A stretch of DNA of 51,254 nucleotides from Deltaproteobacteria bacterium (GTDB lineage Bacteria; Myxococcota_A; UBA9160; UBA6930), in assembly GCA_016875395.1 (NCBI GenBank), contig VGRF01000031.1, positions 1 through 51,254 of the forward strand, given 5' to 3'. Below are positions 13,705 through 50,253 of the stretch, one piece after another. Within the stretch, counting starts at the first letter, position 1, and each line of letters opens with the position of its first letter. The position numbers and the translations under genes are program-made. The notes below the pieces were generated by a model. The model was not told the origin of the DNA and did no database searches. It worked only from the letters and a program-made list of their open reading frames with translations.

Positions 13705-15210
13705 ATGCTGAATCCCGACGACGTCGCCCATCTCTGCAGACGCACGGGCTTCGGCGCGACGGCGCAGGAGGTCGCGTTCCTCGCGGCGGAGTACGCCTCG
13801 CTTCCTGCGCTCGTGGATGCGCTGCTCGCGGATTCTCGCCTCGCAGCGGCGCCCGTGTACGCGTCGCCGCCGCCCGCGATGTCGCCGCCCGCGTGCGCGA
13901 GTGTCGAGCCGTACTTCGAGACGCTCGCGATGGGGCGCTGGGTGCTCGACCGCATGAAGGACGCGCGCTTCGTCCGCTCGTTCGTGACGACGAACGGAGT
14001 GCGCAAGAAGAAGAAGCGCAAGAAGCTGCTCAGGCAGCGTGCGGCGGAAGAGGCTTCGCGCGCGAGCTGGCCGCATCCGCTGCGCGAGAAGATGGTGCTG
14101 TTCTGGCACGGCCTGCTCGTGTCGTCGCTCGACAAGGACTTGGTCTACTGCCACCACTCGACGCTGCGCGCGCAGAACTTGTTGTTCCGCGAAAAGGGGC
14201 TCGGTGACTTCGGCGCGCTGCTCGAGGCGACCAGCGTCGACCCCGCGATGCTCTACTACCTCGACAACTGGATCAGCACGAAGGACAACCCGAACGAGAA
14301 CTACGCGCGCGAGCTGCTCGAGCTGTTCAGCCTCGGCGTCGGCAGCTACTCGCACGCGGACGTGGTGGCCGCCGCGCAGGCGGGCACGGGCTACACGATC
14401 AATCCCGCCACCGGCGTCGATCACGTCTTCTACTCGCCCGCGCACGATTACGGCGACAAGACCTTCGACGCGCGTACGGGCAACTGGGACCTCGTCGGGC
14501 GCGCGGGCGGCGCGAGCTCGCTCGATCTCGTCGAGCACCTCGTCACCGCGAACGGCAAGGGGCAGGTCGCCGCGCGCACGCTCGCGAAGCTGCTCTGGCA
14601 ACACTTCGCGCACTTCACGCCGGCCCAAAGCGTCGTCGACCAGATCGCGAGCGCCGCACTCGCGAGCGGGCGCGTGAACGTCACGGCGGCGCTGCGCGCG
14701 ATCTTCACGCACGCCGAGTTCTATGGCCCTGCAGCGCGCACGGGCAAGCTGAAGAACCCGGTCGAGTTCGTAGTGACGTTGCTAGGGGCGCTGAACCTCG
14801 CCGCGCCCTACGACGCCGAGCAGCGCCTCGACGTGGTGCAGTACCTGATGAGCGACATGGGCATCCAGCTCTTCCATCAGCCGAACGTGTTCGGCTGGTG
14901 GCGGCGGCCCGAGACGCGCTGGATCTCGCTGCCCGCGTTTCAGTCGAAGCAGCTCGCGGCCGGCTACCTCGCGCTCGTGGCGGTGCAGAACGCGGCGCAC
15001 CCGCTGCTCGCGTGGGTGCGCGGCGCGCCCGACTCCGGCGCGGCCGCGATGTTCAGCGCGCTCGGCGCGCCGCAGCCGGCGGGCTCGCCCGTGCTCGCGC
15101 GCGCGGTGCGGCTGCTGACCGATCTGCGCGCGGCGGGTGCGGACGACGCGACGACCGCGATCCGCGCGTTCCAGTTCGTGGCTTCGACGCCGCAAGTGCA
15201 GACCAACTAG
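13705..15210 (+). CDS. DUF1800 domain-containing protein
   Basis: This 501-residue protein belongs to the DUF1800 family, known mainly from its pairing with DUF1501 proteins in planctomycetes, myxobacteria and other Gram-negatives. Recognisable stretches are AHLCRRTGFGAT at the start, MVLFWHGLLVSS, the long NENYARELLELFSLGVG and GTGYTINPATG. An insertion after residue 90 is strongly basic (VRKKKKRKKLLRQ). No signal peptide is visible, unlike its partner. ATG 13705 follows GCCGGAGG. The DUF1501 gene starts 10 bases after the stop. The biochemical role is unknown; a surface or export role is suggested by the Tat-exported partner. Confidence 0.87.
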   Translation: MLNPDDVAHLCRRTGFGATAQEVAFLAAEYASLPALVDALLADSRLAAAPVYASPPPAMSPPACASVEPYFETLAMGRWVLDRMKDARFVRSFVTTNGVRKKKKRKKLLRQRAAEEASRASWPHPLREKMVLFWHGLLVSSLDKDLVYCHHSTLRAQNLLFREKGLGDFGALLEATSVDPAMLYYLDNWISTKDNPNENYARELLELFSLGVGSYSHADVVAAAQAGTGYTINPATGVDHVFYSPAHDYGDKTFDARTGNWDLVGRAGGASSLDLVEHLVTANGKGQVAARTLAKLLWQHFAHFTPAQSVVDQIASAALASGRVNVTAALRAIFTHAEFYGPAARTGKLKNPVEFVVTLLGALNLAAPYDAEQRLDVVQYLMSDMGIQLFHQPNVFGWWRRPETRWISLPAFQSKQLAAGYLALVAVQNAAHPLLAWVRGAPDSGAAAMFSALGAPQPAGSPVLARAVRLLTDLRAAGADDATTAIRAFQFVASTPQVQTN

Positions 15211-15220
15211 GGAGCGTGCG

Positions 15221-16465
15221 ATGAACCCGTTTACCCACGACGTGACGCGCCGCCGCTTCCTCCAAGCGCTCGGCGCGGGCGGCGCTGCGGGCGCGCTCGC
15301 GAGCGTCCTGCCCGACGAGCTGATGGCCCTCGCGCGCCCGCTGCCGCTCGGCGAGCCGATCCTCGTCTCGCTCTTCCTCGGCGGCGGGCTCGACGGCGCG
15401 CACATGCTGGTGCCGAGCGGCGCGAACGACTACGGCCACTACGTCGGCCAGCGCGGCGCGCTCGCGGTCGACCTCGCCGCGACCCTGCCCCTCACCGCGG
15501 ACGCGAGCCTCAACGCGGTGATGCCGCGTCTGCACGCCCGCGCGCAGCGCGGCGAAGTCGCCTTCGTGCGCGGCGTCGACTTGTTGGGGTCGAGCGGCTT
15601 CGATCCGCTCAGCCACTTCGACAAGACCGACTACGTGATGTCGGGCCGCAGCACGCCGGGCGGACCGTCGGGCATCTGGGCGCGCTGGGCGGACACGCAG
15701 CCCGACAACCCGCTGCTGCTCTCGACGGTGTCGTTCGGGCTGCCGCGCATGTTCTCGGGCGGCGCGAAGCCGCAGGCCACGAGCCTGCCGGCGGCGCTGA
15801 ACTTCGCGCTCGGCGCCGGCAGCACGCGCGACGAGACGCTGCTCGCCGCCGCGCTCGAGGATCTCGCGAGTGACTACTCGGCGACGTCGAGCGCGCTCGA
15901 CGCGCGCCTCGCGCACAGCGCGAAGTTCTCGATCGAGACGACGCGCGAGCTCGCGGGCATCTACCCCGCGGCGGTGCCGAACGAGAGTGCGCTCACGCGC
16001 AGCCTGCGCGTCATCGCGGCGCTGATCAACGCGAACCTCACCGGCACGCGCGTCTACGGCACGGTGCACGGCGGCTACGACTCGCACGAGAACCAGCGCT
16101 ACGACCTCGAGCAGAAGCTGCTGCCCGACCTCGACGCGTCGCTCGAGGCGTTCTTCGCGGCGCTCGCGGATCCGTCGCCGGTGGTGGTGATGGTGTGGAC
16201 CGAGTTCGGTCGCCGGCCGCAGGCGAACACGTCGGGCACCGACCACGGCACCTGCAACAACGTGATCGTGCTCGGGCCGCGCGTCGCTGGCGGCGTGGTC
16301 GGCGCGCAGCCCTCGTTCGATTCGGCGCAGCTCGACGCGAACGGCAACCTGCGCGGCGCGATCGCGTTCGAGCAGATCTACGCCGAGCTGATCGACCGGC
16401 ACCTCGGCGGCGACTCGCGCGCAATCCTCGGCGCGCCCTACGCCCCGCTCCACATTCTGCGCTGA
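15221..16465 (+). CDS. DUF1501 family protein, Tat-exported
   Basis: This 414-residue protein starts with a twin-arginine signal (TRRRFLQALGAGGAAGAL). The fold is related to alkaline phosphatases and sulfatases. Visible family landmarks are LFLGGGLDGAHMLVPSG near residues 45-65, YDSHENQ, and VVVMVWTEFGRRPQANTSG with TDHGTCNN, which supplies likely metal-binding Asp and His. It is co-transcribed with the DUF1800 gene. The activity is unproven; a periplasmic hydrolase or scaffold is a reasonable guess. Confidence 0.87.
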   Translation: MNPFTHDVTRRRFLQALGAGGAAGALASVLPDELMALARPLPLGEPILVSLFLGGGLDGAHMLVPSGANDYGHYVGQRGALAVDLAATLPLTADASLNAVMPRLHARAQRGEVAFVRGVDLLGSSGFDPLSHFDKTDYVMSGRSTPGGPSGIWARWADTQPDNPLLLSTVSFGLPRMFSGGAKPQATSLPAALNFALGAGSTRDETLLAAALEDLASDYSATSSALDARLAHSAKFSIETTRELAGIYPAAVPNESALTRSLRVIAALINANLTGTRVYGTVHGGYDSHENQRYDLEQKLLPDLDASLEAFFAALADPSPVVVMVWTEFGRRPQANTSGTDHGTCNNVIVLGPRVAGGVVGAQPSFDSAQLDANGNLRGAIAFEQIYAELIDRHLGGDSRAILGAPYAPLHILR

Positions 16466-16654: not shown

Positions 16655-19600
16655 ATGTCGTTGGCGTTTGCGCGGGCTCTTCGGCAGCTCGCAGTGGTGG
16701 CGACTTCGCTCGCGCTCGGCGTGGCGGTCGCGCAGTCGAAGGTGAACGAGACGGACGCGCCCAAGCGCGGCAACAACCTGTACATCGTGCGCCTCGCACA
16801 CGCGCCGGTCGTGGCGTACACGGGCGGCGTCGCGGGCCTCAAGGCGACCAAGCCCGGCCTGAACAAGAAGATCGACCCGAACAGCAGTGCGGTGATCGAT
16901 TACTCGAACTACTTGCGCGGCAAGCACGACGCCGCGATCGCGGGCGCAGGCGGCGGCCGCAAGGTCTACAGCTACGTCAACGTGTTCAACGGCTTCGCGG
17001 CGGAGCTGAGCGACTCGGCGGTTGCGGCGCTGCGCGCGAACCCCGATGTGCTGCGCGTCGAGAAGGACCAGATCCAGCAGCTCGACACGTTCTCGACGCC
17101 GCAGTTCCTCGGTATCCCTGGCGGTATCTGGCAACAGCTCGGCGGGCCGGAGCGCGCGGGTGAGGACGTGATCGTGGGCGTGATCGACTCGGGCGTGTGG
17201 CCCGAGAATCCGAGCTTCTCGGATCGCGACATCACCAACCCGCACGACAACCGCGTCGTGTACCGCCAGATCCCGGGCTGGAACGGCAAGTGCGAGCCGG
17301 GCGAGGCGTTCGCTGCGTCGCACTGAGGCCACAAGCTGATCGGCGCGCGCTACTACGCCGAAGGCTTCGGCGGCGTCGCGGGCGTGAAGCGCGACTACCC
17401 GTACGAGTTCGCCTCGGCGCGCGATACCGATGGCCACGGCACGCACACCTCGAGCACCGCGGCCGGCAACTACGATGTCGACGGCGTCGCATTCGGCACG
17501 TCGTACGGGCGCATCAGCGGCATGGCGCCGCGGGCACGCATCGCGGTGTACAAGGCGTGCTGGGCGCGTCCGCCCGAAGGCGGCTGCTCGGGCGTCGACC
17601 TCGTCGCGGCGATCGATCAAGCGGTGGCCGACGGCGTCGACGTGATCAACTACTCGATCAGCGGCACCGGCACGAACTACCTCGACGCGGTCGAGGTGGC
17701 GTTCCTGTTCGCCGCCGACGCAGGCGTGTTCGTGGCAGCGTCCTCGGGCAATTCGGGCCCCAGCCCGAGCACGACGAACCACCCGAGCCCTTGGCTCACC
17801 ACGGTGGCGGCGAGCACGCACGATCGCGGCACCGCAGGCACCGTCACGCTAGGCGACGGCTCGGTGCACACCGGCATGACGATCGGCGTGGGCGCTGGAC
17901 CGGCGCCGCTCGTGTTCTCGTCGAGCGTCGGCCTCGCCGGCGCGAACGCGACGGAAGTTCGCCTCTGCTACCCGGGCCGCCTCGACCCCGCGCTCGTCGC
18001 GGGCAAGATCGTGCTGTGCGACCGCGGCGTGATCGCGCGCGTGGACAAGAGTCTCGCGGTGCAGCTCGCCGGCGGCGTCGGCATGGTGCTCGCGAACACG
18101 AGCGCCAACTCGCTGAACGCCGACCTGCACGTGATTCCTACCGTGCACATCGACCACGTCTCGGGCGCCGTGGTGCGCGCGTACGCGCAGACTCTGGGCG
18201 CAACGGCGAAGCTCTCGGCGCTGATCCCCGGCGTCGCGGTGGCGCCCGTCGTGGCGGCGTTCTCGTCGCGCGGCCCGTCGCGCGCGTCGAGCGACATCCT
18301 GAAGCCCGACGTCACGGCGCCCGGCGTCGACATCTTCGCGTCGTACTCGCCGGCTCCGCGCGGCGCGAATCACGACTTCCTGTCGGGCACCTCGATGTCG
18401 AGCCCGCACATCGCGGGCATCGCGGCGCTGATCAAGCACGCGAATCCGACGTGGACGCCGATGATGATCAAGTCGGCGATCATGACGACGGCGTCGCAGC
18501 TGATGAACAACGGCGCGGCGATCCCGGGCAATCCGTTCGGGTTCGGCGCCGGTCACGTCGCACCCAGCAGCGCTGCGGATCCGGGCCTCGTCTACAACAC
18601 GACCTTCAACGACTGGCTCGCGTTCTTGTGCGGCACGGGTCAGCTGCAGGCCAGCTACTGCCCGCTCATCAAGATCGACCCGAGCGACCTCAATCTCGCG
18701 TCGATCACGGTGGGCGAGCTCGCGGGCTCGCAGACGGTGAAGCGCACGGTGCGCAACGTCGGCGCTGCCGGCACCTACACCGCGAACGTGCAGGCGCCGG
18801 CTGGCGTGAACGTGACGGTCACGCCGTCCTCGCTCACGCTCGCGAAGGGTCAGAGTGCGACTTATCAGGTGAGGTTCAGCTCGACGACGGCTGCCGTGCT
18901 GAACAGCTACGCGTTCGGCGCTCTCACCTGGACGGACGGCACGCACAACGTGCGCAGCCCGCTCACGGTGCGCCCGGTGCCGCTCTCGGCTCCGGCAGCG
19001 GCGAGCTCGAACGGCGGCGCGATCAGCATCCCCATCGTGTTCGGCTACGACGGCGTGTTCGGCGCCTCGGCGCGCGGCCTCGTGGCGGCGAACACCACGC
19101 CGGGCAATGTGGTCGATGATCCGGCCAACGACATCGACACCGCACTGGCCACGGGGGTCGGCATCACGGTGCATCCCGTCGTGATTCCGGCCGGGACCAC
19201 GCTCGCGCGCATCTCGCTGTTCGACGCGAACACGGACGGGGCCGACGACCTCGACCTCTATGTGTTCAACGCAGCGGGCACGACGCTGCTCGGCTCGAGC
19301 GGCTCCGGCACGTCGGCGGAAGAGGTGAACCTGGTGAACCCCGCCGCGCAGACCGTGCTCGTGGTCGTGCACGGCTGGCAGACCGACGGCCCCGACGCGA
19401 ACTACACGCTCTTCAACTGGAACCTCGACGAGAGTCTTCGCGAGGGGTGCCTCCTGGCGAAGCTGCGGCGCAGGCTCTTCGGAGCCTGCGCCGCCCGTAT
19501 TTTGGGCGCGCCCGTCTTGAGCCGGCGCAGGCGTCGGAGATACGCTCCGCGGCTTCCCGAATCCCGAAGGAGACTCGCGTGGCCGATCTCGAAACCTTCC

Positions 19601-19660
19601 GCGCCGAAGCGCGCGCCTGGCTCGAAGCCAACTGTCCGCCGGAGATGCGCCAGCCGCTGA
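16655..19660 (+). pseudogene. Plant-type subtilase (S8A) with PA domain, interrupted by in-frame TGA
   Basis: One reading frame runs 16655-19660 with a single TGA at 17324-17326. Order: signal peptide (1 to about 27), I9 propeptide (YIVRL to about 150), catalytic domain with D178 (GVIDSGVWPE), H261 (GHGTHT), oxyanion N366 (SSGNSGP) and S580 (GTSMSSPH), counting the TGA as residue 224. A protease-associated domain lies near 430-500, a fibronectin-like domain near 690-770, then a beta domain. The layout is that of cucumisin-type proteases. The TGA stands exactly where relatives have the second Cys of a conserved pair (WNGKC...Cys-x-x-KLIGAR). The C-terminus is also abnormal: after NWNLDES the frame continues as Arg-rich sequence through the leader of the next gene. 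GGAGGA precedes ATG 16655. Decay is most likely; recoding or assembly error remain possible. Confidence 0.85.
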
Positions 19661-20775
19661 AGCCCGGCGAGTCGCTCGTGTGGGGCGGGCGGCGCGAGAA
19701 GTTCGCCGCGCCGGGCTCGAAGCTCTGGCTCGAGCGCATGGTCGCGAAGGGCTGGACGGTGCCGACTTGGCCGAAGGAGTACGGCGGCGCGGGGCTGTCG
19801 AAGGCGGAGGCGCGCGTGCTGCAGCAGGAGATGCGCGCGCTCGGCTGCCGGCCCGCGCTCACCTCGTTCGGCATGACCATGCTGGCGCCCGTCGTGATGG
19901 AGTACGGCACGCCGGAGCAGAAGGCGAAGTTCCTGCCGCCGATCGCGCGCGGCGAGATTCGCTGGTGCCAGGGCTACTCCGAGCCGGGTTCGGGCTCGGA
20001 CCTCGCGAGCCTGCAGTGTGCGGCGGTGCGCGACGGCGACGACTACGTCGTGAACGGCCAGAAGATCTGGACCAGCGATGCGCACCACAGCGACTGGATC
20101 TTCTGCCTCGTGCGCACGAACAAGAACGGCCCCAAGCACGACGGCATCAGCTTCCTGCTGTTCGACATGGACCAGCCCGGCGTGAAGGTGAGCCCGATCA
20201 TCCTGATCAGCGGCGCCTCGGACTTCTGCCAAACGTTCTTCGACAACGTGCGCGTGCCCGTCTCCCACCGCATCGGCCAGGAGAATGCGGGCTGGACGAT
20301 CGCGAAGCGCCTGCTGCAGCACGAGCGCGAGATGCTCTCGGAAGGCGGCGGGAGCTATCAGGCGCGCAAGAAGCGCACGCTCGCCGAGTGGGCGCGCGAG
20401 TCGATCGGCGCCGGCCCCGGCGTGCTGCCCGACGCAGACCTGCGCGATCGCATCGTGCGCGTGGAGATGGAGCAGCTCGCGTACAGCGCGTCGCTGCGCC
20501 GCAGCATGGAGTCCGCGAAAGCGGGCAAGGGCCCCGGCCCCGAGACGTCGATGTTCAAGATGGTCGTCTCGGAGATGAGCAAGCGCCGCGCGGACCTGCG
20601 GGTGCGCATCGCCGGCGTGCAAGGCCTCGGCTGGGAGGGCGAGGGCTTCGACGAGAGCGACCTCGAAGCCACGCGCATCTGGCTCGCGTCGAAGGCCGAG
20701 TCGATCGCGGGAGGCACGAGCGAGATCCAGCGGAACATCATCGCCAAGCGCGTCCTGGGCCTACCGGGCGACTGA
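19579..20775 (+). CDS. Acyl-CoA dehydrogenase
   Basis: This 398-residue FAD enzyme catalyses alpha,beta-dehydrogenation of an acyl-CoA. It shows TWPKEYGGAGLS near 70, CQGYSEPGSGSDLASL for the FAD-binding strand region, and SIAGGTSEIQRNIIAKRVLG at the C-terminus. GTG 19579 (VADLETFRAE) follows GAAGGAG; the further 44 codons open upstream lie in the decayed tail of the subtilase and are not used. The region before the C-terminal helices is longer than usual (RKKRTLAEWARESIGAGPG), as in the large FadE-like subgroup. It may pair with the shorter dehydrogenase at 20921 as an alpha/beta heteromer, as actinobacterial steroid-side-chain FadE pairs do; that is inference. Confidence 0.87.
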   Translation: MADLETFRAEARAWLEANCPPEMRQPLKPGESLVWGGRREKFAAPGSKLWLERMVAKGWTVPTWPKEYGGAGLSKAEARVLQQEMRALGCRPALTSFGMTMLAPVVMEYGTPEQKAKFLPPIARGEIRWCQGYSEPGSGSDLASLQCAAVRDGDDYVVNGQKIWTSDAHHSDWIFCLVRTNKNGPKHDGISFLLFDMDQPGVKVSPIILISGASDFCQTFFDNVRVPVSHRIGQENAGWTIAKRLLQHEREMLSEGGGSYQARKKRTLAEWARESIGAGPGVLPDADLRDRIVRVEMEQLAYSASLRRSMESAKAGKGPGPETSMFKMVVSEMSKRRADLRVRIAGVQGLGWEGEGFDESDLEATRIWLASKAESIAGGTSEIQRNIIAKRVLGLPGD

Positions 20776-48845: not shown

Positions 48846-49063
48846 AGTTGTTAGGCGGGTTGCGATGTGCTGCGACGGACTGCGGCCCGTTGCTCCAAGT
48901 GCGCGAATTCTCTGCTGAAGCCGTGAATCTCCCGCTCCGACGGCATGCGCGGTGATAGCCTCGATTTCGCTTCCAACTGCTTCCCCCGTGCTTCCCCGGC
49001 GCTCGCGGTCGCGAGAGTTGTTATGGAGAACGCGGCTGCTGAAGCCGGAACGCGAGGAACCGC
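48846..49063. other. Junction region between att remnant and integrase
   Basis: These 218 bases contain no supportable gene. Two copies of the TTGTTA word are here, one directly beside the att core (AGTTGTTAGGC) and one at 49018-49023 (AGTTGTTATGG). Arm-type integrase binding sites would be expected here, but I cannot define them. Confidence 0.45.
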
Positions 49064-50253
49064 GTGGCGACTCTCACGAAGCGCGTGATCGATGCGATCC
49101 AGCCGAGTGAGCGTGAGCAGTTCATCTAAGACGACGCGCTCGCGGGCTTCGGAGTGCGCGTGAAGCCCTCGGGCGTGTGCACGTACATCGTGCAGTACCG
49201 AAACGCGCACGGGCGCACGCGGCGTCACGCGCTCGGCCGGCACGGCGCGCTCACGCCCGACGCGGCACGGAAGCTGGCGCGCCAGGTGCTTGGGCAGATC
49301 GCCGGCGGTGCCGACCCCGCGGCGGAGAGGAAGGCGCAGGAGAAGTCCTCACGCTCTTGCAGTTCGCTGAGCGCTACATGAGCGAGCACGCGCTCGTGAA
49401 GAAGAAGGCGTCGTCCGCGCGCTCGGATGAGCTCACGCTGCGCCTCTACATCCTCCCGAGGCTCGGCGCGCTGCCGCTCGCGGCTATCGCGCGCCCCGAT
49501 GTCGCGCGCCTCCATCACGAACTGCGCGACAAGCCGACAACCGGGAACCGGGTCGTCGCGCTGCTCTCGAAGATGATGAATCTCGCCGAGCTGTGGGGAA
49601 TCCGGCCGGATCACACGAACCCGTGCCGTCACATCCGCCACTACCCGGAGTCGCGCCGGCGCCGCTTCCTCTCGGGCGACGAGCTCGCGCGTCTCGGCCA
49701 TGCGCTAGAGCACGGCGAGGCGCTCGGTCTCGCGGATAAGCCCGCGCTCGACGCGATTCGCCTGCTGCTCCTCACCGGCGCGCGCTGCGGCGAGATTCTC
49801 AACCTGCGTTGGGAGCACGTCGACCGTGAGCGCTGGGTGCTGAGCCTGCCCGACTCGAAGGCCGGCGCGAAGGAGATTCCGGTCGGTCGCGCCGCGCAGG
49901 TCGTGCTGAAGAACATCGAGCGCACGACTTCGCCTTGGGTGATTCCGGGCCGCGATCCGCGCGCGGCGCTCGTGAACCTCAACAAGGCGTGGCGGCGGAT
50001 TCGCAAGCACGCCGAGATCGAGGATGTTCGCCTGCACGATCTGAGGCGCACGGCGGCGAGCGCGGGCGCTTCGGTCGGGCTCAGCCTCGAAACCGTCGGC
50101 CAGATTCTCGGCCACACGCAGGCCGCGACGACGAAGCGCTATGCGTTCCTGTTCGACGACGCGAAGCGCGAGGCCGCGGACCTCATGAGCGCGCGGCTCG
50201 CGGACGCGCTGAAGGCGAGGCCGGCGCTGCGGGTGGTTCTAAGCAGGAGCTGA
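49064..50253 (+). pseudogene. Tyrosine site-specific integrase (P4-like), broken by stop and frameshift
   Basis: From GTG 49064 the frame reads VATLTKRVIDAIQPSEREQF and I, then TAA (49127-49129), then DDALAGFGVRVKPSGVCTYI, the usual DUF4102-like arm-binding N-terminus. Near 49345 the reading frame shifts by one missing base (AAERKAQEK to VLTLLQFAERYM). The core-binding and catalytic domains follow intact: Arg in LLTGARCGEILNLRW, HDLRR, GHTQAATTKRY with His and nucleophile Tyr. Two lesions make it inactive as read. It is the expected integrase for the adjacent tRNA-Thr site. Confidence 0.85.

Follow-up and report, generated by a model that had tools for sequence, protein, structure and literature searches.

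The window analysed here, a stretch of 51,254 nucleotides (contig VGRF01000031.1 of assembly GCA_016875395.1, Deltaproteobacteria bacterium), contains a PA-domain subtilase gene that is interrupted by a TGA codon exactly at a conserved cysteine. Does this codon specify selenocysteine, is it a nonsense mutation in a decaying gene, or is it a base error of the consensus sequence? These three readings had been set out, with a lean towards decay, in a sequence-only reading of the same DNA. The locus is composed of the following features:

16655..17323, plus strand: 5' half of the subtilase with the N-terminus, the inhibitor-I9 propeptide, the catalytic Asp178 and Cys213
17324..17326, plus strand: TGA in frame as codon 224, at the column of the conserved cysteine
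17327..17366, plus strand: hairpin 3' of the TGA with a 6-bp stem, a loop from 20 nt after the TGA and G as the second loop base
17327..19440, plus strand: 3' half of the subtilase with His261, Asn366, Ser580, the PA domain and an fn3-like domain; homology and coding signal stop at about 19440
19441..19660, plus strand: part of the frame that has neither homology nor coding signal and stays open up to 19658, overlapping the start of the next gene
19465..19494, plus strand: terminator-like hairpin of 13 pairs with a T-rich tail, ahead of any in-frame stop codon
19579..20775, plus strand: downstream gene with a GTG start and AAGGAG upstream of it

The subtilase frame begins with an ATG at position 16655 that is preceded by GGAGG, and it is open to position 19660 apart from the TGA. 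The GC3 value amounts to 0.915 on the 5' side of the TGA and about 0.92 on its 3' side, thus indicating a single gene that has been split, just as the sequence-only reading had proposed for the two halves in the same frame. When the frame is read through the stop, the Pfam domains inhibitor I9, Peptidase_S8, PA and fn3_6 are recovered, with the catalytic Asp178 upstream of the TGA and His261, Asn366 and Ser580 downstream of it; the Peptidase_S8, I9 and PA domains together with the Asp/His/Asn/Ser residues place the protein in the S8 subtilase family. TGA is also the usual stop codon of the neighbouring genes, e.g. of the frame ending at position 16465. Directly upstream of the subtilase lies a frame pair (window 13705-16465) that we take to encode DUF1800 and DUF1501 proteins, and the gene downstream (19579..20775, plus strand) is presumably an acyl-CoA dehydrogenase.

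Translation from position 16655 ends, according to the sequence, after 223 residues, and the product would comprise the propeptide and Asp178 without His261 and Ser580 and hence would be no protease. A two-piece protease, formed by reinitiation or by readthrough with an amino acid other than selenocysteine, might be envisaged, as an in-frame GTG at position 17384 could restart the 3' part. However, the stop parts Asp178 from His261 and Ser580, and a piece restarted downstream would be devoid of the signal sequence, the propeptide and Asp178, so that we regard this scenario as the most improbable of all.

The conserved cysteine was investigated in an alignment of 20 homologous loci (L020, L023 and L052-L069), which correspond to 19 distinct homologues, given that L020 and L052 represent one gene; L021, whose match covers residues 286-640 only, was omitted. 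The alignment at this column, which had been proposed as a check, bears out the claim that the TGA occupies a conserved cysteine paired with an upstream one: column 224 is a cysteine in all 19 distinct homologues, and the partner Cys213 is retained in 18 of them. Equivalents of both residues are present in the solved relatives 7eox and cucumisin (3vta). The similarity to S8 subtilases of the cucumisin or tomato SBT3 type (7eox, 3vta, 3i6s) extends to the I9 propeptide, the PA insert, fn3_6, the domain order, the catalytic residues and the Cys213-Cys224 pair, whereas a stop codon at the second cysteine and a lost 3' end distinguish the gene studied here. The subtilase of HGW-Chloroflexi-8 (L020) is 51% identical over residues 9-933; it has the cysteine at the column in question, about 55 extra residues and a proper stop, and its gene is intact.

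Among the 19 distinct homologues, which were taken irrespective of the use of selenocysteine by their hosts, not a single one exhibits a TGA at column 224, which argues against recoding. The gene is rare in the vicinity of the source genome, with a match at 1e-60 in only two of 117 genomes including its own, and close relatives therefore cannot settle the question of the column. The subtilase is matched at this threshold in 14 of 110 genomes from the class to which the Chloroflexi homologue belongs; a search of viral contigs revealed no relative of it.

The sequence-only reading had suggested that an absence of selenocysteine genes would refute recoding, an argument that falls away, since the complete set is present. 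The genome harbors selA (514.9 bits), selB (282 bits) and selD (261.7 bits), all above their cut-offs, and a tRNA-Sec (71.3 bits) that is also called by ARAGORN with the anticodon tca. Judged by these genes, the organism is able to use selenocysteine. SelD itself carries CGGC instead of selenocysteine. Its locus (L018; C1:239014-239925 of the same genome) is organized as a fusion in which SelD, with Cys at the Sec/Cys site, follows another domain that we assume to be a pyridine-nucleotide oxidoreductase. Two candidates were discarded: formate dehydrogenase alpha was considered as a native selenoprotein, but none of its matches has an internal stop, and an EF-Tu copy with a TAG among the selB matches is not interrupted, the TAG being its normal stop. 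With this machinery, the TGA might be read by SelB and tRNA-Sec, resulting in a secreted subtilase whose Cys213-Cys224 disulfide would be replaced by a selenenylsulfide between Cys213 and Sec224.

The genome provides its own control for such a decoding. A screen of 925 kb of its sequence for TGA codons with a cysteine three residues away and a coding signal on both sides retrieved a single site, L080:13286. It is located in a gene (L080:13247-13588, contig C7) for a protein of 113 residues with the motif UTSC, whose score of 109.9 bits exceeds the cut-off of 85 for NF041106, 'ArsC family (seleno)protein'. Proteins of this type occur in 41 of the 60 genomes searched, the own one included, and the TGA is common across the order: one TGA was found in 42 of 43 matches, and the one match without it is partial and starts at residue 34, past the Sec column. 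The U-TSC context followed by a hairpin, with a loop that begins 23-24 nt after the TGA and contains GUU, was recovered in 19 of 20 loci fetched, the remaining one (L096) having been missed by the filter. All seven base pairs of this hairpin are kept in 19 of 19 sequences, and one pair has changed on both sides in two of them. On sequence evidence this gene encodes a clear ArsC-family selenoprotein, and its conservation suggests that the selenocysteine machinery is in use. The subtilase shares with it an in-frame TGA at a cysteine-type position, but differs from it in that the ArsC-family gene exhibits a UxxC motif, a TGA common to its relatives and a strong conserved hairpin; around the TGA of the subtilase neither a CxxU nor a UxxC redox motif is present, a further point against recoding.

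The stretch downstream of the subtilase TGA does contain a hairpin, with a 6-bp stem, a loop of 10 nt with G in second position and a distance of 20 nt, and this element is in favor of recoding insofar as it conforms to a loose SECIS definition. We take this definition, of the bSECISearch type, to comprise a loop of 3-14 nt starting 16-37 nt after the TGA, a G among its first two bases and a stem of at least four pairs. The same definition applies, however, to 145 of 736 Cys codons (20%) and 313 of 1451 random codons in the coding stretches of the genome, and shape and energy together (40 nt) still select 84 of the 736 and 180 of the 1451. The hairpin is thus commonplace at the background level of this genome. 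Folding of the stretch was no better than that of shuffled sequences (z -0.26 to -0.58), and a hairpin model of the lineage, which was built on one protein family and partly reflects its coding sequence, gives about -0.4 bits at the subtilase versus 55.5 bits for the ArsC gene. In the Rfam searches, SECIS_1 had no match over the genome and is uninformative, given that none of 14 controls was matched either; no family was found over the window at the gathering score, and a lax E-value over positions 17250-17450 returned only two matches at chance level. The lack of a SECIS-like fold had likewise been named as a refutation of recoding, and this point is decided weakly, because a loose hairpin exists and hairpins of this kind abound.

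A second defect was recognized at the 3' end, where the abnormal C-terminus reported in the sequence-only reading was recovered. The similarity to the homologues ends near position 19440, and the closest homologue continues for about 55 residues beyond this point. A search for its tail in all frames of the window yielded nothing beyond a shared YTLF stretch (best E 0.62). The coding score in the frame declines from about 0.4 per codon at position 19410 to below zero by 19470-19500. No in-frame stop precedes the terminator-like hairpin (19465-19494), and the frame ends at 19660, past the start of the next gene at 19579. Even with full readthrough of the TGA, the mRNA would accordingly lack a proper stop if transcription ends at this hairpin. 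A comparison of the broken 3' end with the sampled genome revealed no repeat or mobile element; the stretch matched only itself and the hairpin it contains. A bacterial selenoprotein gene is expected to have an otherwise complete frame with a normal end, which the subtilase does not possess, and the damage thus counts against recoding. It also bears on the possibility that the TGA, and perhaps the missing 3' stop as well, is a consensus error or the base of a minor strain in a metagenome-type assembly, so that the real gene would be intact: the loss of homology over about 55 residues affects more than one codon and is not explained by a single base error.

How improbable is a TGA at a cysteine if nonsense changes strike at random? 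Codons 1-926 offer 189 single-base routes to a stop, eight of which lead from Cys to TGA (4.2%, or 2.6% with a fourfold frequency of transitions), and for genes of the genome this share ranges from 2.5 to 4.4%. The precise hit on the conserved cysteine is therefore a rare event per random nonsense change in this gene and as such speaks for recoding. The genome, however, contains further interrupted genes. A screen of 525,258 bases resulted in 12 candidates, including the subtilase, and that of 400,000 more bases in five; a case was retained only if family matches extended across the stop or lay on either side of it, and an earlier, looser screen for pairs, which mostly retrieved neighbouring genes, was excluded from the counts. 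Six other interrupted genes remain in about 922 kb of distinct sequence (20% of the assembly):

L037:16612-19136, minus strand: TonB-dependent receptor with the stops TAA and then TAG
L040:10541-11938, minus strand: MFS transporter with a TGA inside the Pfam match
L038:734-2266, minus strand: histidine kinase with a TAG inside the Pfam match
L090:25-1158, plus strand: AAA-CBM protein with a TAG inside the Pfam match
L092:4235-7846, minus strand: bifunctional PutA with an in-frame TAA at a column where 5ur2 has Tyr
window 49043-49378: integrase arm domain with an in-frame TAA

The TGA of the MFS transporter seems, as far as we can judge, to be located at a glycine-type position, and the integrase piece is apparently the remnant of a mobile element. 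The other candidates (L051:11061, L035:17988, L035:17054, L033:1371, position 18372 on the minus strand of the window, L050:14200, L044:222, L079:8157, L079:3062 and L091:19381) were dropped as neighbouring genes, as wrong-frame cases or as unproven. Extrapolation gives about 29 interrupted genes per genome, which is a lower bound, and with a Cys-to-TGA share of 2.5-4.4% among some 30 such genes about one TGA at a cysteine is expected by chance (0.7-1.3 cases genome-wide). For one broken gene taken alone the coincidence is unusual; across a genome with some 30 such genes it is not. The stops in other well-kept genes, including the bifunctional PutA, are at the same time consistent with consensus errors, as are the fragmentation of the assembly into 96 contigs, its contamination of 1.5%, and the intact codon structure and catalytic residues on both sides of the subtilase TGA.

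Published surveys illustrate how such a site would be handled elsewhere. According to the description of its procedure, deep-Sep (PMC12013277) accepts a candidate if it has one or more Sec homologues, or if its ten best hits include two Cys homologues that come from different organisms; SECIS elements and homologues are then inspected by hand. The requirement for Cys homologues is one that the subtilase would probably satisfy. The results given for the GOS survey (PMC2398784) include predicted selenocysteine in trypsin-like (nine sequences) and MucD (two sequences) serine proteases, which is a precedent for recoding in that it concerns secreted serine proteases and, in the trypsin-like family, a conserved cysteine. 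Those proteases have another fold, and nine and two TGA sequences with SECIS-like elements contrast with one isolated sequence here, a type of case that the survey did not judge because of possible sequencing errors. The part of the review PMC9312934 that lists the trypsin-like protease makes no mention of a subtilase, and the literature searched on selenocysteine, subtilase and in-frame TGA contained no naturally Sec-containing subtilase; the one paper retrieved on selenocysteine and UGA together with subtilases concerned the thermostability of enzymes.

In summary of the four lines of evidence, namely the in-genome control, the homologues, the 3' damage and the frequency of in-frame stops in other genes, the subtilase is best regarded as an ordinary damaged gene, and the TGA at 17324-17326, be it a real stop or a base error, is almost certainly not a selenocysteine codon. 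With its stop at codon 224 and its lost 3' end it shows disabling lesions relative to intact homologues, as is characteristic of a pseudogene. The most likely reading, and in our view a probable one, is a real nonsense codon in a subtilase that is decaying in its lineage, with the two defects interpreted as steps of this decay; the gene has otherwise preserved its codon structure and every catalytic residue, and the inactivation would hence be recent. A consensus error or a mixture of strains, with a gene that is actually intact, appears possible, and a real loss is more likely than such an error. Of the three initial readings, decay and base error have thus been strengthened, and selenocysteine recoding has been weakened to the point of being very unlikely. 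Equally doubtful is the specific scenario of a Sec codon that has moved into the conserved disulfide of a PA-domain protease as a structural selenenylsulfide, in a frame that ends in an unrecognised lineage-specific tail.

If recoding were true, the known uses of selenocysteine would be extended by a structural role, outside redox chemistry, in a secreted protease. The locus conveys a caution: a complete selenocysteine system and a TGA exactly at a conserved cysteine are insufficient to claim a selenoprotein, since roughly one such coincidence is to be expected where about 30 genes of a genome are interrupted. Other TGA claims in this lineage can be measured against the ArsC-family selenoprotein and its hairpin.
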